DNA from: Allomuricauda sp.
Lineage (GTDB): Bacteria > Bacteroidota > Bacteroidia > Flavobacteriales > Flavobacteriaceae
Assembly (NCBI GenBank): GCA_003712125.1
Contig: RHLF01000002.1
Coordinates: forward strand, 1,054,001 to 1,118,000
Length of the DNA stretch: 64,000 nt
Direction of reading: 5' to 3'
The notes under the pieces are model-generated. The model had not been told where the DNA came from and did not search any database. It was given only the letters and a program-made list of their open reading frames with translations. A program made the position numbers and the translations under genes. Below are positions 51,375-64,000 of the stretch, piece by piece. How positions within the stretch are numbered: position 1 is the stretch's first letter; the number at the start of each line of letters is the position of its first letter.

Positions 51375-51407
51375 AAAAGTGACTATGGCTCCATAGTCAC
51401 TTTTTTT
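51375..51407 (+). terminator. Strong rho-independent terminator
   Basis: AAAAGTGACTATGG-CT-CCATAGTCACTTTTTTT, 14-bp perfect stem. Confidence 0.9.
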
Positions 51408-51424
51408 CTCTTCCATAAATCATC

Positions 51425-51445
51425 AAATGCAACTTGGTTGCATTT
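51425..51445. promoter_or_regulatory. Putative Zur operator (copy 1) upstream of COG0523 gene
   Basis: AAATGCAAC-TTG-GTTGCATTT perfect 9-bp inverted repeat; matches the core of the palindrome at 63110..63136. Overlaps the -33 TTG of a TTG-N19-TATTTTTA promoter-like pair. Confidence 0.65.
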
Positions 51446-51507
51446 ACTCAATTTTGTTTTATTTTTACGCCTGTTTAATGCATAAAGCAGCTGTCTAAAA
51501 ATACTAC

Positions 51508-52731
51508 ATGACTCTCGAGAAAAAATTACCCGTAACGGTTTTAAGCGGATTTCTGGGCGCCGGAAAAACTACACTTCTCAATCATATACTTCATAACAAA
51601 GAAGGTCTAAAAGTGGCCGTTATTGTTAATGATATGAGCGAGGTGAATGTTGATGCCGCCTTGGTGCAAAGTGAAAACACCTTATCGCGTACCGACGAAA
51701 AACTGGTAGAGATGAGCAATGGCTGTATTTGTTGTACCCTGAGAGAAGATTTAATGATTGAGGTAGAACGGTTGGCCAAAGAAAACCGATTTGATTATTT
51801 GCTTATTGAAAGTACAGGAATCAGCGAACCAGTGCCAGTGGCGCAAACCTTCTCCTTTGTTGATGAAGAAAACAATATTGATCTTTCCCGATTTAGTTAT
51901 GTAGACACTATGGTCACTGTTGTAGATGCCTTTAATTTCTTCAAGGATTTTGGCAGCCCAGAAACCTTGATGGATCGCGAACTCACCGATATGGAAGGGG
52001 ACTATCGAACCATTGTCAACTTGCTCACCGATCAAATCGAATTCGCCAATGTCATTGTATTGAATAAAACAGATTTGGTTTCCAAAGATTCTTTGGCCAT
52101 GTTAAAGACCATAGTAAAAAAATTAAACCCTACAGCTCAAATTGTCGAATCTGAATTCAGTAAAGTTGATCCAAGTGCCATTTTGCACACAGGCCTCTTT
52201 AATTTTGAAGAAGCCGAACAAAGTGCAGGTTGGATTGAAGAATTGAATAAGGAAGAACACACCCCTGAAACTGAGGAATATGGTATAAGTTCTTTTGTAT
52301 ATCGTAGTAAAAAGCCGTTTGACCCAATACGGTTTTGGAGTTATGTACAGCAAAAATTTCCACATACCATCATTCGAAGCAAAGGACTGTTTTGGCTAGC
52401 CTCACGCCCTGAACAGGCCTTGGTTTGGGGCCAGGCAGGAGGCTCCCTTAGGGCTGACAGCGCCGGAGTGTGGTGGTCAAGTATGCCTTTTCAGAAAAGG
52501 ACCCAATTTATGGCCTTCTTAGAAAACCAAGAACATATTGAAAAGGATTGGGACCCCACTTTTGGAGATCGGAAAAATGAAATTGTTTTTATTGGTCAAG
52601 ACATGGATGAGCAAAACATTCGAAAGCATTTGGATTCCTGTTTGGCAACCGATAGTGAAATTGAATCCAACCACTGGAAAGAAGGCTATAATGATCAATG
52701 GCCTGTGGAACGGGCTTACGCATTGGAATAA
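51508..52731 (+). CDS. COG0523/CobW-family GTPase (putative zinc metallochaperone)
   Basis: [18 protein letters not shown] Walker [16 protein letters not shown] CxCC motif, NKTDLV, C-terminal CobW_C domain. Confidence 0.93.
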
Positions 52732-52739
52732 TTAATGAA

Positions 52740-53333
52740 ATGAAAAGAACACGTTTTGTACAAAATCTTTTGGGAATTGGGCTACTCTCGGTAGTGGGCT
52801 GTCGAATGGGCGATGATAAAAAAGAAACATCTTCGAATCTCGTTCACACAGATACAAATAAAACCAAAGAAATTGCTGATGGGCTACGAAGAGAACTTAT
52901 TGAAGCGTGGCATCAATCGGAAAAAATGACCATGATCAATGTACAACAGATGCCCACTGAATATTTCACCTATAAATATACCGAAGAGGCCATGACTTTC
53001 TCTGAGCAATGGCGCCATTGTGTTATTTATACCTGCGGTCAGTTGGCCGGGAGAGCAGGAATCAAAAACCCCTATGAGAATATCAAACTTCCCGTACAAA
53101 TGCCTAAAGAGGATGTCATCACGGAATTAAAAAATATGTATGCCCATGTCCGAAAATCAATTAAAGAACTGTCCGATGAAAAGCTCTTTTCCGACTGCGA
53201 TTTTGCCGGTGCAACTATTCCGGTTTGGCGTCTATTTTATGCTATGGAAAATCATATTATTCACCATCGCGGTCAATGTGTGGTGTATTTGCGCTTAAAT
53301 GAAGTGGTTCCTAAAGGGTACTATGGATGGTAA
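52740..53333 (+). CDS. DinB-like exported/lipoprotein
   Basis: MKRTRFVQNLLGIGLLSVVGCRMGDDKK lipobox; EQWRHCVIYTCGQLAGRAG ... MENHIIHHRGQCVVYLRLNEVVP DinB-like. 8 bp after the COG0523 gene. Confidence 0.75.
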   Translation: MKRTRFVQNLLGIGLLSVVGCRMGDDKKETSSNLVHTDTNKTKEIADGLRRELIEAWHQSEKMTMINVQQMPTEYFTYKYTEEAMTFSEQWRHCVIYTCGQLAGRAGIKNPYENIKLPVQMPKEDVITELKNMYAHVRKSIKELSDEKLFSDCDFAGATIPVWRLFYAMENHIIHHRGQCVVYLRLNEVVPKGYYGW

Positions 53334-53380: not shown

Positions 53381-54097
53381 ATGATGCTACAAAAAAAATT
53401 TGATGAAATTGTTAAAACGCATTTTCCCAATGCAATGGATGCCAAGGACACCTCAATACATTACCTAGGAAAAATGCAATTAGAACATGGCATAGATGTC
53501 TCCAAGGCGTTAATGGCCACATCAGTATGTTCGGACGATATTAACGTGCCTTCCACTACATTTTTTAATGTTTTGTTCGGACCCTTTGTAATGGGAGGTC
53601 TCGGAGGTATCCCTTTTGTTGGTCAAACCGGGATGACGGCCTTCGCCCACCATATTCCAGATGACGGAAGTGCATTTTTCTTTTATGGGCCTCATATAGG
53701 TGTTACATCTGATGGGGAATTGGGTAAAATGTACAGACCGGGCCAAGAAAACAAAGGAAATTCCTGTGGGGCCCTAATGCTGGCTTTAAGTAGATTTCAA
53801 GATGGGTCTTATAAACCTGTTTTGCACGATGATGATTATCAACAGATGAAGTTAGAGCAGAGCCTTATTTCACAAAGGGAGGACATAATAAATAGTGAAA
53901 ACCCGCAAAAGGCAATTACCGAGGCCACGTATGAAATCATTGATAAAAAAATACATGAATATATCAAAACATGTAAAAGTGAGTTTCCGGTAGATAAAGT
54001 TGCTCTTTTGGGTGGTATCATTATAAATACAGATCCAGGAACAGATGATTATTTTGATGCCAGAAACTTCGAAATTATTGACATAAATACCCTTTAG
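53381..54097 (+). CDS. LCIB-like (limiting-CO2-inducible B family) putative carbonic anhydrase
   Basis: VCSDDIN...FGPFVMGGLGGIPFVGQTGMTAFAHHIPDDGSAFFFYGPHIGVTSDGELGKMYRPGQENKGNSCGAL matches the remembered LCIB family pattern (SVCSDEIN / GGLAGFPFGGVTGFGAMAHHIPDGG / YGPHVGV / CCG). Confidence 0.72.
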   Translation: MMLQKKFDEIVKTHFPNAMDAKDTSIHYLGKMQLEHGIDVSKALMATSVCSDDINVPSTTFFNVLFGPFVMGGLGGIPFVGQTGMTAFAHHIPDDGSAFFFYGPHIGVTSDGELGKMYRPGQENKGNSCGALMLALSRFQDGSYKPVLHDDDYQQMKLEQSLISQREDIINSENPQKAITEATYEIIDKKIHEYIKTCKSEFPVDKVALLGGIIINTDPGTDDYFDARNFEIIDINTL

Positions 54098-54220: not shown

Positions 54221-54718
54221 ATGAAGGCACATTTATACTTTATTTGCCCAACTGACCATCTTGAACCCGTTATCAATGAGTCATCGGATAACGGAAGCCA
54301 TTATTACACCTCGCTTGGAAACTCAGTTGTATTCACTAAGTACACCATAAATCAAATCGAACATTTGATTGCGAAATACAATATAGAGGAGGCAACGTTT
54401 ATCTTATCAAGCACCAATCCAATTATCCGCGATGCGTTGGAAAGGCAGGATTTTTCTGGAATAAGGGGATTGAACGGTTTCTACGACGAAATTGCAAGGC
54501 AAAAAAGGTATTCAAAGGTACTATGGCAAGAACACAACAATCAATTCATTATTCTTTCCTATTACCTAAACAAAAAAATAGAGGAATTACAACATAAACT
54601 CAAGGCTCAATTTGCCAACCAAATAAAAATAACTGGGAAAATTTACGACAAAAAGAAAAATACATTCGACGAAATATATCCAAATTTGGTATGCACTAAA
54701 TTTTTTAGTTTAAATTAA
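54221..54718 (+). CDS. Conserved hypothetical protein, family not identified
   Basis: Coherent ORF MKAHLYFICPTDHLEPVINESSDNGSHYYTSLGNSVVF with no motif I can name. Confidence 0.6.
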   Translation: MKAHLYFICPTDHLEPVINESSDNGSHYYTSLGNSVVFTKYTINQIEHLIAKYNIEEATFILSSTNPIIRDALERQDFSGIRGLNGFYDEIARQKRYSKVLWQEHNNQFIILSYYLNKKIEELQHKLKAQFANQIKITGKIYDKKKNTFDEIYPNLVCTKFFSLN

Positions 54719-58707: not shown

Positions 58708-59214
58708 TTGAGAGTATTGCTCACAGCATTCTTGTTGGCTATCTCAACAATTTCTGTTGCGCATCCATTGCGTCTATCCTTATGTGAAGTGGAGTATGTG
58801 CCCAAAAAACAACTGCTTACCGTTAATCTCAAGTTGTTTTTGACCGATGTAAATGAAGCCATAACCTTTGACCCTTATAGCAAAGAATTGGCTTTTTGTG
58901 AACCGAATGAAGCGGACAATGCAAACACACTACTCATGAAGTATGTGAACCAGTTCTTTTATGTCAAGGCGAACAATAAAAAAATTTCGCTTAAAATAAA
59001 GAGCAAGAAGTTAAGCGGTGAGGGCGAAAATACCGCCCTTTGGATCTACTTCGAACTGGAACAGCACGACCCATTAAAGTCATTGGAGATTAAAAATGCT
59101 GTGTTTACCGACCTCTTCTTTGACCAAAACAATATCGTATATGTGCATGCCAAGGGAGAATCGAAAAGCCTAATGTTCACCAAAAAGACACCCGTTCACC
59201 AACTAAGGTTTTGA
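58708..59214 (+). CDS. DUF6702-like exported protein
   Basis: MRVLLTAFLLAISTISVAHPLRLSLCEVEYVPKKQLLTVNLKLFLTDVNEAI; TTG start; 1 bp before the HupE/UreJ-like gene. Confidence 0.7.
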   Translation: MRVLLTAFLLAISTISVAHPLRLSLCEVEYVPKKQLLTVNLKLFLTDVNEAITFDPYSKELAFCEPNEADNANTLLMKYVNQFFYVKANNKKISLKIKSKKLSGEGENTALWIYFELEQHDPLKSLEIKNAVFTDLFFDQNNIVYVHAKGESKSLMFTKKTPVHQLRF

Positions 59215-59215
59215 T

Positions 59216-59800
59216 ATGCATCCTTTTGAATTTTACTTGAAATTGGGTTTTGAACATATAGCGGATATGGCTGCTTATGATCATATTCTCTTTTTGGTTG
59301 CCCTATGCGCTGTGTATCGGATAGAAGAATGGAAAAAGATTTTGATTCTGGTCACCGCCTTCACCATTGGTCATAGTATTACGCTGGTCTTGGTTTCCCT
59401 AGAGCTATTTTCCATCCCCTCAAATATCATCAAGTTTTTGATACCGCTCACCATATTTGCAACAGCGGTTCACAATGTCATTGGGTCAGATCAGGCAGTG
59501 AAATCAGTAAAAATGAAAAGGAACTATGCATTGGCATTGTTTTTTGGAATGATCCACGGAATGGACTTTTCAAACTACTTCAAGGCGCTTATTATGGACC
59601 CCGCCGATATTGTTGTCCCGTTATTGGGCTTTAATGTGGGTATTGAACTAGGGCAATTATTGATCGTATTCTTTATTGTGGGAATTGCTTTCTTGTTTTT
59701 GAACCTTCTCAAGGTGAAACACCGCGAATGGAATGTGTTTATTTCAGGTGCCGCGGCAGGGATGTCCCTGATATCGATGCTCGATAATGCAATTTGGTAA
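59216..59800 (+). CDS. HupE/UreJ-family membrane protein
   Basis: GFEHIADMAAYDHILFLVALCAVY, TAFTIGHSITLVL, FFGMIHGMDFSNYF. Confidence 0.85.
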   Translation: MHPFEFYLKLGFEHIADMAAYDHILFLVALCAVYRIEEWKKILILVTAFTIGHSITLVLVSLELFSIPSNIIKFLIPLTIFATAVHNVIGSDQAVKSVKMKRNYALALFFGMIHGMDFSNYFKALIMDPADIVVPLLGFNVGIELGQLLIVFFIVGIAFLFLNLLKVKHREWNVFISGAAAGMSLISMLDNAIW

Positions 59801-59813
59801 ATAGCATTAACAG

Positions 59814-60203
59814 CTAACATGCAGCGCAGGTACCTTTAATAATAGTCTGCACGTTTTTAGTCTTAAAACCTTCTGGAACATTAATTTTTGATGAATTTGC
59901 ATTCTCGATGCAATAGACCGTTTCACAGGATTCACAAACAAAGTGAGCGTGGGCATTTCCATGATCGTGAAGCGCTCCAAACGCATATTTGGCCATTCCA
60001 CTTTGATCATTGATGCGATGAATGAGACCTGCTTCCTCAAAAGCGCCGAGGTTTCTATATAGGGTTGATTTGTCAACCTGCTCACCCAAGGCATTTTTTA
60101 TATCTAAATAGGACTGTGCGTGTTTAGAATTAAACAAATACCCCAATAATGCCATTCGCAATTTTGTGCGCTTTAATCCTTGTTTCTGAAGCAAATCTTC
60201 CAT
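59814..60203 (-). CDS. Fur-family transcriptional regulator (probable Zur)
   Basis: MEDLLQKQGLKRTKLRMALLGYLFNSKHAQSYLDIKNALGEQVDKSTLYRNLGAFEEAGLIHRI ... HAHFVCESCETVYCIE ... GTCAAC. Zinc rather than iron is inferred from neighbours. Confidence 0.85.
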   Translation of the reverse strand: MEDLLQKQGLKRTKLRMALLGYLFNSKHAQSYLDIKNALGEQVDKSTLYRNLGAFEEAGLIHRINDQSGMAKYAFGALHDHGNAHAHFVCESCETVYCIENANSSKINVPEGFKTKNVQTIIKGTCAAC

Positions 60204-60226: not shown

Positions 60227-60661
60227 TTAAAAGCCAAAGGCCTCAGCCTCATCAAGCAAATAATAACAACGTGTAGGGTCGTTCATATTTAAACGTAATA
60301 TTCCGGTAACCGATATCAAATCATCCATTGCAAAGGAAGGGGGTTGGGCAAACGAAATTTCAGAAACCGTTTCCATACCACCGTTACCGCAAAAAAAGCA
60401 ACTTGCCATGGGGTTTTTGGAAAGCAAATAAACGGATTGACCTCCTCCCATAACCAAAAGAAATCCAACCAAGGATACCTTTTTACCTTCCAAGCTGGTC
60501 AATTTGTCAGAAAAGGTTGCTTCTTGAAAACTGGGATACGCCGTTTTTTCGATGCGTTCTTTCCACGAGATACCGCCCTCTAAATCAGACCAATACAAAG
60601 TGGTCTGCGCCACAATAGTAGGGGAACAAACCAATAATATAATGAGTAGCGCACTTCTCAT
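60227..60661 (-). CDS. Exported protein with NPMASCFFCG motif (DUF3299-like), paralog A
   Basis: Signal peptide MRSALLIILLVCSPTIVAQ; TTLYWSDLEGGISWKE..., GKKVSLVGFLLVMGGG...NPMASCFFCGNGG. Confidence 0.75.
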   Translation of the reverse strand: MRSALLIILLVCSPTIVAQTTLYWSDLEGGISWKERIEKTAYPSFQEATFSDKLTSLEGKKVSLVGFLLVMGGGQSVYLLSKNPMASCFFCGNGGMETVSEISFAQPPSFAMDDLISVTGILRLNMNDPTRCYYLLDEAEAFGF

Positions 60662-60662
60662 C

Positions 60663-61100
60663 TTAGTTTACCAATTTACCGGTAACCTCACTCATGATGT
60701 AGTTGCAATGATCGACGTCATCCCTATTCAATTTCAGAACACCAGTAACCTGAACAACTTGATCGGTTTTAAAAGGAGGTTTTTCCTTAAAAGTTACTTC
60801 GATTATACTCTCTGGACCTGCCCCACCGCAAAAAAAGCACGAAGCCATTGGATTGGCCGAAATCAAAAAAACCTCTCCCGTACCTGAGATATCTAAAAAA
60901 TAACCCGTTACCTCAATCTTTTTTCCATTAAATGATTTGATCTTCTCGCCAAATTTGGGCATTAAAAAGTGGACATCGTACTTTTCATTGTATTCAGGTT
61001 GAAAATCGACATCAGCCAAATCACTCCAAGTCAGTTTTGTTTGCGCGAAAATACTTGGCGCCGCTAGAAGGGCAAGCACAATCAACCAATTCTTAATCAT
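60663..61100 (-). CDS. Exported protein with NPMASCFFCG motif (DUF3299-like), paralog B
   Basis: Signal peptide MIKNWLIVLALLAAPSIFAQ; TKLTWSDLADVDFQPE..., GKKIEVTGYFLDISG...NPMASCFFCGGAG. Confidence 0.75.
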   Translation of the reverse strand: MIKNWLIVLALLAAPSIFAQTKLTWSDLADVDFQPEYNEKYDVHFLMPKFGEKIKSFNGKKIEVTGYFLDISGTGEVFLISANPMASCFFCGGAGPESIIEVTFKEKPPFKTDQVVQVTGVLKLNRDDVDHCNYIMSEVTGKLVN

Positions 61101-62457
61101 CAGACAATATTTTTGAAATGTTCATTTTAAAAATCGATGTGGAAGCTAAAGTTACGGCAACAATTGCAATAAACAAGGTAGCCCCAAGCAAGGCGAACTC
61201 AATAACGGTTGGCCCGCCTATCGATAGCACGTAACCGTATCCTGATTCGATATATGTTGAAGTCAATAATAATGCCAAACGACCCAAGAACCATCCCAAT
61301 ACAAATCCAAATAAGGCCAAAAACAAGCCTTCGAACAACACCAGGTACAACAACTTGCGTGTACCCAAACCATAGGTGCGCAACAAGGCCAATTCTTGCC
61401 GTCGTTCACGAATGGTTTTTAACAGACTTATGAAAATACTGAATCCGGAAACCAGTAAAATGGCTAAGGCAATGCCATTTATGGTCTTGACACCTGAACC
61501 CAATAAGCCCATTAAACGCTGTACTTCGAACCCAGGAAGAGCAGCTTGCATAGTGGTGTTTTCGTTGATAAATCGAGGCAGTTGCACCAAACCCAAGGGA
61601 CTTTTGAACTTGACCAAGAGCGAGGTGATTTCAAGCTCGTCGCCATCATCTTCATGAGCGTGGTCATGTTCTTGATCTTCATGCTCCTGATGGTCATCTC
61701 CTTCGTCCACATGGGATTCATGATCATGCTCTTCTTCTCCATGTTCATGATGGTTATGTTCTTTATCACCGTGGTCATCATGGTCATGCTCCACAACCTC
61801 ATCTTCATCGTGATCTTCTTGGTCGTGTTCCCCATCTGTATGGGCATGGGCGTCCCAAATACTTTCCAAATTGGAAACCAACAACTGATCTACTACAGTT
61901 CCAGAGGGTTCCAATAGCCCAACAAGGGTGTACGGATGGTCTTCATGGGCTTCTCCTCCACTGGCAGCCAAACCGTGCGAACCTACTATCTTATCTCCAA
62001 TTTGAAGTCCTAGTTTTTTAGCTACACTACTTCCAGCGACAACTTCAAAAGACCGTTCAAAAAACCGTCCCCTATCCAATACGACATTATAACTCTCAAA
62101 ATAGGCCAACTCTGTTCCCAGTATGCGGTACCCCTTATAACTATCACCATAGGAAACTGGTATGGCCGTCCCCACAAAAGGGTGGTTTTTGATTTGCTCT
62201 GCTTCCTTTAAATTGATATTTCCTGTGGGGGCATCAATATGCAAAACTGAGGACAAAACCAGTTGTAACGGACTCCCTTTTGCACCCACAACCATGTCAA
62301 CGGGCGCAATGTTCTTGTTTAGCTGTCCATTCAATTGATTGCTCAATTGAAGCACATAGGTGACCAAAGAAACGCTCAAAACCAACAGCAAAAGGCTCAA
62401 AACCAAGTTTAATGGTTTTGAAATCATATTGCGGTATGCCAAATAACCTAACTTCAT
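61093..62457 (-). CDS. FtsX/MacB-like ABC transporter permease with His-rich loop
   Basis: NMISKPLNLVLSLLLLVLSVSLVTYVLQLSNQL ... C-terminal three-TM FtsX-type domain (RRQELALLRTYGLGTRKLLYLVLFEGLFLALFGFVLG); long HDH/HEDH stretch in extracytoplasmic domain. Confidence 0.88.
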   Translation of the reverse strand: MKLGYLAYRNMISKPLNLVLSLLLLVLSVSLVTYVLQLSNQLNGQLNKNIAPVDMVVGAKGSPLQLVLSSVLHIDAPTGNINLKEAEQIKNHPFVGTAIPVSYGDSYKGYRILGTELAYFESYNVVLDRGRFFERSFEVVAGSSVAKKLGLQIGDKIVGSHGLAASGGEAHEDHPYTLVGLLEPSGTVVDQLLVSNLESIWDAHAHTDGEHDQEDHDEDEVVEHDHDDHGDKEHNHHEHGEEEHDHESHVDEGDDHQEHEDQEHDHAHEDDGDELEITSLLVKFKSPLGLVQLPRFINENTTMQAALPGFEVQRLMGLLGSGVKTINGIALAILLVSGFSIFISLLKTIRERRQELALLRTYGLGTRKLLYLVLFEGLFLALFGFVLGWFLGRLALLLTSTYIESGYGYVLSIGGPTVIEFALLGATLFIAIVAVTLASTSIFKMNISKILSDD

Positions 62458-63080
62458 AGCACAATTTGATTTTTAAAATGTTGACTCACCCTTTGGTCAT
62501 GGGTGATTATGACCAGACTACTTTCACAAATATCAGCTTCGTCCTTTAAAAGCTGTATTACTTTACCGCAATTCTTATCATCCAAATTGGACGTGGGTTC
62601 ATCTGCAAAAACAACTTTGGGTTTATGAATTAACCCTAGGGCAATAGACAATCGCTGTTGTTGGCCTTGACTTAATTGCGTTACTTTCTTTTTTAAATGT
62701 TCTGTAAGACCCAATCGTGCTGCCAGTTGCTGTCTTCGTTCTTTGTCTTGCAAACTTTTCGGAAAACTTTGGCGCAACTGAAGGTTTTCCCCCGCATTCA
62801 AAGACTTTACAAAATAGTACTGTTGGAAGATTAGGCCGATATGGGTTCCTCGAAATTGGTCCATACGTTGCCGGTTCAGCGAAGTAATTTCAACATCATT
62901 GATGCATATAGTCCCTTTTGACGCAGGAAGGATTCCTGATAATAAGTGAAGTAGGGTTGTTTTCCCCACCCCAGAAGGCCCTAATATGAGTAGGTGCTCC
63001 CCTGGGACCAAATCGATATCGGGAAAATGAAACGCCTTTTCACCCGGATAAGCAAAATTGAGTCCAGCTGTTTTGACCAT
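62454..63080 (-). CDS. ABC transporter ATP-binding protein (LolD/MacB-like)
   Basis: LLILGPSGVGKTTLLHLLSGILP, QLSQGQQQRLSIALGLIHKPKVVFADEPTSNLDD. Start MVKTAGLNF at 63080; 4-bp overlap with the permease gene. Confidence 0.92.
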   Translation of the reverse strand: MVKTAGLNFAYPGEKAFHFPDIDLVPGEHLLILGPSGVGKTTLLHLLSGILPASKGTICINDVEITSLNRQRMDQFRGTHIGLIFQQYYFVKSLNAGENLQLRQSFPKSLQDKERRQQLAARLGLTEHLKKKVTQLSQGQQQRLSIALGLIHKPKVVFADEPTSNLDDKNCGKVIQLLKDEADICESSLVIITHDQRVSQHFKNQIVL

Positions 63081-63109: not shown

Positions 63110-63136
63110 TGTAAATGCAACTAAGTTGCATTTACA
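63110..63136. promoter_or_regulatory. Putative Zur operator (copy 2), perfect 27-bp palindrome between divergent operons
   Basis: TGTAAATGCAACT-A-AGTTGCATTTACA, 13-bp perfect arms; overlaps TTG of TTG-N19-TATTTTAG (merC side); TATTTTTG -7-like element on the minus strand toward the ABC ATPase. Confidence 0.7.
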
Positions 63137-63189
63137 AAAATTAGGTTTATTTTAGCATCCTAATTTTCGATAAAACCATAATCATTCCC

Positions 63190-63609
63190 ATGAATGTCCT
63201 TCAACTTACGACAAAATCAGATATAATCGGAGCATCGGCAAGTGCACTTTGTTTGATACATTGTGTAGCTACTCCCCTTCTCTTTGTGGCACAGGCGGGA
63301 CTTGTTGGCGATGGTGAATCTCACCCAGAATGGTGGGGCACTCTTGACTTCATATTTTTGTTTATATCGTTGCTTGCCATTTGGTGGTCAGGTAAAAATA
63401 CCTCCAAAACATGGATGCGCATCGCTTTATGGGCAAGTTGGTCGGTATTGTTCTTTGTGGTCCTCAATGAAAAGCTTTCAATCATTGCTTTGGCTGAACA
63501 GATAATTTACATACCAGCCATAGCTCTTATTTTCTTTCATTTATACAACCGAAAGTATTGTCAATGCGGAAGAGGTGATTGTTGTACAGAAGAGCTGCCA
63601 GATTCCTAA
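63190..63609 (+). CDS. MerC-domain membrane protein
   Basis: SDIIGASASALCLIHCVATPLLFVAQAG; C-terminal CQCGRGDCC. Confidence 0.88.
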   Translation: MNVLQLTTKSDIIGASASALCLIHCVATPLLFVAQAGLVGDGESHPEWWGTLDFIFLFISLLAIWWSGKNTSKTWMRIALWASWSVLFFVVLNEKLSIIALAEQIIYIPAIALIFFHLYNRKYCQCGRGDCCTEELPDS

Positions 63610-63621
63610 AAGTTAACATTA

Positions 63622-64000
63622 ATGTTGGACATAGATAAAATCGAAACCTTAGGCGATGAGCACATTGGTACTTCATTGAGAACTCCAATGAAGGATAATG
63701 CTTTTACTATTTCAGACAGCAAGAAGATCGAACTTATACAACATCATTTTCAAAAAATAATGGAAACCTTAGGGTTGGACCTGGCTGACGATAGTCTATC
63801 AGGAACTCCCTATCGCTTTGCGAAGATGTATGTAAAGGAGTTGTTCTATGGATTAAATCCAGAAAATAGGCCCAAAATATCCACGTTTGACAATAAATAT
63901 GGGTACCAAAAAATGTTGGTAGAGCAAGACATCACGATTGATTCATCTTGTGAACACCATTTTTTACCCATCGTCGGACATGCCCATGTGGGGTACATTC
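63622..64000 (+). CDS. folE: GTP cyclohydrolase I, truncated by window end
   Basis: MLDIDKIETLGDEHIGTSLRTPMKDNAFTISDSKKIELIQHHFQKIMETLGLDLADDSLSGTPYRFAKMYVKELFYGLNP...ITIDSSCEHHFLPIVGHAHVGYI. Read from the sequence; not in ORF track. Confidence 0.92.
   Translation, partial: MLDIDKIETLGDEHIGTSLRTPMKDNAFTISDSKKIELIQHHFQKIMETLGLDLADDSLSGTPYRFAKMYVKELFYGLNPENRPKISTFDNKYGYQKMLVEQDITIDSSCEHHFLPIVGHAHVGYI

Follow-up and report, generated by a model that had tools for sequence, protein, structure and literature searches.

Organization of the locus

The window, by which we mean the whole stretch of 64,000 nucleotides of Allomuricauda sp. DNA analysed here, contains two copies of one palindrome. Operator 1, AAATGCAAC-TTG-GTTGCATTT (51425-51445, no strand), consists of two 9-bp arms around a 3-bp spacer, and we interpret it as a putative Zur-type box on the basis of its sequence, its count in the genome and its conservation at orthologous loci. 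Its twin, operator 2 (AAATGCAAC-TAA-GTTGCATTT, 63113-63133, no strand), lies in a divergent intergenic region and is embedded in a longer 12-3-12 palindrome (63110-63136). Re-reading the DNA reproduced exactly the sequence, the coordinates and the 9-3-9 layout given in the initial annotation, as well as the twin within 63110-63136. The strong terminator described there as preceding operator 1 is also present (plus strand, 51375-51404; assigned by a terminator scan as the intrinsic terminator of the upstream gene), and the distance to the GTPase start, given as about 60 bp, is 62 bp.

Downstream of operator 1, on the plus strand, lies a gene for a COG0523 (G3E) GTPase (51508-52731), which its domains, motifs and model match identify as a ZigA-like zinc metallochaperone. 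The protein carries the G3E motifs including NKTD, a CxCC metal motif and CobW domains, among them CobW_C. The NCBIfam model "zinc metallochaperone GTPase ZigA" matched it over the full length (E = 1.8e-169) with 563.7 bits, 36 short of the curated cut-off of 600, while the next-best family reached 165.7 bits. The protein is therefore a near-member of this model, in keeping with its earlier assignment to the Zur-linked type of COG0523, and its gene is the only strong COG0523 gene of the genome. It is probably co-transcribed with the two genes behind it on the same strand: these encode a DinB-superfamily lipoprotein (52740-53333, recognized by domain search) as probable second gene and an LCIB/C-type carbonic anhydrase (53381-54097) as probable third. 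A homologue of the lipoprotein stands directly behind an operator in another locus (L085), and in two more (L178 and L191) operators lie immediately 5' of homologues of the carbonic anhydrase. The next plus-strand gene (54221-54718) encodes a 165-aa protein with no function assigned, a homologue of which belongs to a MerC cluster that has an operator (L127).

Operator 2 separates two divergent transcripts. To its right, on the plus strand, lie genes for a MerC-domain membrane protein (63190-63609) and for FolE (GTP cyclohydrolase I, recognized by its domain; 63622-64000, extending beyond the window), of which the genome has four copies in all. To its left, tightly packed on the minus strand, an ABC operon begins with a LolD-like ATPase (62454-63080, assigned by its domains) and continues with a permease that combines MacB_PCD and FtsX domains, contains a histidine-rich loop and resembles ZrgB (61093-62457; compared with PMC9820375). 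Next come genes for two secreted paralogues, one of 145 aa that carries the motif NPMASCFFCGxxGPE (60663-61100) and one of 144 aa (60227-60661), and a gene for a Fur-family regulator (59814-60203) closes the operon. The block between the operators is kept in close relatives, four of which carry both operators (L039, L042, L043 and L052).

The palindrome is rare in the genome and conserved at orthologous promoters

With up to three mismatches allowed, 0.07 matches were expected in the window and two were found, each with no mismatch. The 3.1-Mb genome contains exactly these two perfect copies; none with one or two mismatches occurs genome-wide, and the next best has three. A shorter core with one mismatch tolerated added just three genome matches, each within a coding frame. 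None of the five weaker genome matches (three mismatches, or one in the core) lies beside a recognized metal gene, and four of them fall within coding frames. A position weight matrix trained on promoters of GTPase orthologues scored 12 or more in the window at operators 1 and 2 alone (31.4 and 33.6), while simulated DNA with matching dinucleotide content gave no match of at least 24 bits in 20 Mb. The check for further sites proposed in the initial annotation thus ended at the same two operators, and a multitude of unrelated copies, named there as evidence against an operator, does not exist in this genome.

The proposed alignment with intergenic regions of orthologous COG0523 genes drew on 80 loci from named genomes across Bacteroidota; the genera include Croceivirga, Flagellimonas/Allomuricauda, Aquimarina, Kordia, Winogradskyella and Tenacibaculum, and the set also holds records labelled Saprospiraceae/Saprospirales, Cytophagales, Chitinophagales and Sphingobacteriales. 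The motif lay immediately 5' of the GTPase gene in 48 of the 80 loci and, in another 20, 5' of the gene heading the run to which the GTPase gene belongs, the opposite of the missing conservation that was to speak against the claim. Three loci stop at a contig end; the nine orthologous loci without any site count against the reading as a Zur operator. When 40 column-permuted palindromic matrices were used as a control, 39 trials gave no site and one gave a single site. Per-column conservation was restricted to 23 bp with the consensus TAAATGCAAC-NNN-GTTGCATTTA and fell sharply outside, except for a -7 block about 20 bp further on.

The same motif was found in other genera. A scan of 201 Flavobacteriaceae genera with a strict-core pattern returned 52 sites in 39 genomes, against 10 sites with the reversed pattern as control. 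Its presence in 39 of 201 genera, and hence absence from most, also counts against the Zur-operator reading; site and GTPase orthologue nevertheless co-occur in this family sample (11/19 versus 28/182, Fisher p ~1e-4). Among 29 loci from other genera, the start of a Fur-family gene lay no more than about 70 bp from the site in 18 and a MerC gene directly behind it in 10, and the Fur-family genes that directly abut the site in other genera include CxxC-bearing ones. Other genes found behind it elsewhere encode FolE, DUF1826, a HisI (PRA-CH) paralogue and LCIB-type carbonic anhydrase, as well as TonB receptors and ABC transporters, and the site is seldom found away from zinc-type genes. COG0523 proteins, paralogues of HisI and of carbonic anhydrase, and DUF1826 have been described from proteobacterial Zur clusters (Haas et al. 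2009, PMC2770081). Because many of these neighbour types belong to known Zur regulons, they support the zinc/Zur reading.

Comparison with known Zur systems

For the znuABC-zur operons of two Desulfovibrio, Rodionov et al. (2004, PMC545781) predicted the ZUR site ATGCAACNNNGTTGCAT. This 17-bp consensus of the znuABC-zur_D box is identical to the motif described here, so that one consensus was reached both from znuABC and, in our case, from GTPase promoters. The palindrome shares three traits with Zur boxes: it is near-perfect and stands at a promoter, within the size range of 7-1-7 to 23 bp; it precedes zinc-starvation genes and is kept at their orthologues; and its sequence agrees with a predicted Zur consensus. 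The Desulfovibrio operons also resemble the present one in including a Fur-family regulator and in targeting zinc uptake. They differ in belonging to another phylum and in having ZnuABC as target, which is lacking here, and the boxes in both cases are predictions. The Gram-positive 23-bp Zur box TAAATCGTAATNATTACGATTTA, as quoted in PMC545781, shares the length of about 23 bp and the TAAAT/ATTTA ends, whereas the inner part of the present motif is GCAAC-NNN-GTTGC.

The GTPase type and the operator directly upstream are shared with the Zur-regulated ZigA/YciC subfamily of COG0523, and HisI, carbonic anhydrase and DUF1826 neighbours with its Zur clusters (PMC2770081). The text of that study names no Bacteroidetes regulon; in the present arrangement, genes for a DinB-type protein and an LCIB-type carbonic anhydrase come after that of the GTPase, and FolE is of type I instead of being FolE2. 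The ABC operon recalls Vibrio ZrgABCDE, in which an ATPase, a MacB-like permease and a small periplasmic protein are likewise under Zur and in which V. cholerae ZrgBC has a MacB-like four-helix permease (PMC9820375). Unlike the Vibrio system, the present genome has no ZrgA homologue, as a genome search for ZrgA confirmed; the histidine-rich loop sits in the permease, and the operon encodes two CFFCG proteins that belong to no Pfam family. A search of the genome found no ZnuA either, which makes the Zrg-like ABC system a candidate zinc importer. The initial annotation spoke of a small zinc regulon; in this genome it comprises just two operators, with no znuA gene and no additional sites.

The open-access literature on Zur in Bacteroides, Flavobacterium and Riemerella yielded no description of a regulon. 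A Zur-type operator with a compact zinc-starvation regulon in Bacteroidota would accordingly represent a known type of control for which we found no report from this phylum in that literature.

The right half-site overlaps the promoter

Bacteroidota promoters consist of -33 and -7 elements, the latter of the TAnnTTTG type. At operator 1, the conserved spacing suggests that a TTG within the right half-site (51438-51440, plus strand) serves as the -33 element, since a TAnnTTTG-type -7 element, TATTTTTA (51460-51467, plus strand), is found N19 past it and coincides with the conserved columns. The MerC-side promoter at operator 2 repeats this geometry, with TTG at 63126-63128 and the -7 element TATTTTAG at 63148-63155 (plus strand), so that the TTG-N19-TATTTTTA arrangement reported earlier is correct at both sites. 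Among 51 orthologous promoters, the TTG in the right half-site is followed by TAnnTTTG at a spacing of N18-20 in 41 and of N17 in three, with almost none at any other distance. The TTG of GTTGCA thus appears to double as a -33 element covered by the operator. Because the half-site contains this TTG and the geometry is conserved, repression by occlusion of the -33 element is likely.

A Fur-family protein is the likely repressor

The product of the last gene of the ABC operon (59814-60203, minus strand) is the likely repressor of both operators. Domain search, alignment and structure prediction agree on its family: it matches PF01475 (E = 4.2e-15), and its predicted structure shows a Fur fold (pLDDT 88) that matched structures of PerR, Fur and Zur to about the same degree. 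By sequence it is no nearer to solved Zur than to solved Fur or PerR structures; the Zur model PRK11639 gave 27.9 bits against a cut-off of 167, and scores with the Fur, PerR and Irr models were likewise below their cut-offs. Two CxxC pairs (C90, C93, C126 and C129), invariant in the alignment, form the structural zinc site. The genome has three Fur-family genes, and this one is a candidate Zur because it alone bears CxxC pairs and belongs to the operon that follows operator 2.

The regulatory M-site, which we placed by alignment with Streptomyces coelicolor Zur (the D65 position, a cysteine and two histidines), is less canonical. Glycine replaces the cysteine in this protein and its closest relatives, which retain H62, H85 and H87. 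In other genera, most of the proteins encoded immediately after the operator possess all of these residues, with histidine at the D65 position, and the candidate is only about 29-34% identical to these Zur-like proteins. Since it lacks the M-site cysteine, zinc specificity rests on the motif and the target genes, not on the sensor ligands. The zinc reading put forward in the initial annotation is supported by the motif, the targets and the ZigA-like GTPase, though not by the M-site of the candidate repressor.

This lack of a canonical cysteine makes it conceivable that the site is a Fur-family operator at which this lineage senses manganese, iron or cobalt, or not zinc alone. The glycine, the invariance of H62, H85, H87 and C98 despite it, and the presence of Fur and PerR among the closest solved sequences by E-value would fit such a sensor. 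The operator and targets, however, equal those of relatives whose regulators keep the cysteine, and the GTPase is ZigA-like, so that we consider another metal improbable. Slightly less probable still is binding by one of the other two Fur-family proteins of the genome (L210 and L211) or by a dimeric regulator unrelated to them. Palindromes are recognized by many metal regulators, and the candidate gene lies 3 kb from operator 2 and 8-9 kb from operator 1; against this stand the CxxC-bearing Fur-family genes next to the site in other genera and the lack of CxxC pairs in L210 and L211.

A second Fur-family group from many Flavobacteriaceae (L152-L177) was rejected as the regulator: its members have CxxC pairs but no operator upstream. 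These genes appear to be located in metal-efflux clusters. C98 and H62, by contrast with the M-site cysteine, are invariant in the aligned members of both groups linked to the operator, the candidate with its closest relatives and the Zur-like proteins of other genera.

Proposed mechanism

We put the probability at about 85% that a Zur-type repressor, a zinc-responsive member of the Fur family, uses the palindrome as its operator and acts as follows. When zinc is sufficient, a repressor dimer, by our proposal the 59814-60203 product, would occupy the 21-23 bp palindrome and cover the TTG of the GTPase promoter, thereby blocking RNA polymerase. When zinc is low, the repressor would be released and the ZigA-like GTPase made, probably together with the DinB-type protein and the LCIB-type carbonic anhydrase encoded behind it. 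Operator 2 would govern two transcripts simultaneously, the Zrg-like ABC operon and MerC-FolE, and the position of the repressor gene at the end of the former would result in autoregulation.

That the palindrome is instead an RNA hairpin (a terminator or attenuator), or a chance or mobile repeat, is very improbable: the terminator scan does mark it as a weak stem, but its position 5' of the promoter, with which it overlaps, places it outside the GTPase transcript, no T-run follows the stem on the plus strand, and its bases are conserved, not pairing alone. We rejected a hairpin on these grounds and a chance repeat because of genome-wide uniqueness and the simulation; both genome copies, moreover, precede related genes.

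Returning to the Zur-type operator, we tentatively suggest, at clearly less than even odds, that two or more diverged Fur-family lineages recognize a single Bacteroidota Zur operator, and that the sensor of the present lineage, encoded at the end of its own Zrg-like transporter operon, has lost the Zur cysteine and senses zinc via other ligands. If true, this sensor would define a distinct Zur subclass. The Zur-type reading itself would provide a concrete zinc-starvation regulon and an operator definition for a phylum in which the open-access literature yielded none. Under zinc scarcity, marine flavobacteria probably use the transporter, the GTPase, the carbonic anhydrase and the small CFFCG proteins, and a regulon of two operators is compact enough for complete testing.

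Observations on neighbouring genes

Pfam and PDB searches gave no assignment for the two CFFCG proteins. Both paralogues share an invariant CFFCG core, their genes adjoin that of the ABC permease in every close relative compared, and a relative of theirs has its own operator in another locus (L108). Genes for a DUF6702 protein (58708-59214) and a HupE/UreJ-type membrane protein (59216-59800) are convergent with the regulator gene, and this pair is conserved within the same block in relatives. In another GTPase-bearing genome, a weakly ZrgA-like protein with a histidine run (L184:9936-10433; PF10986, below cut-off) stands behind an operator. Two FolE copies behind operators elsewhere have apparently lost a zinc ligand, through HLC to HLY (L190:5189-5851) and CEHH to CEHN (L090:15001-15663), whereas the copy in the window keeps all of them.
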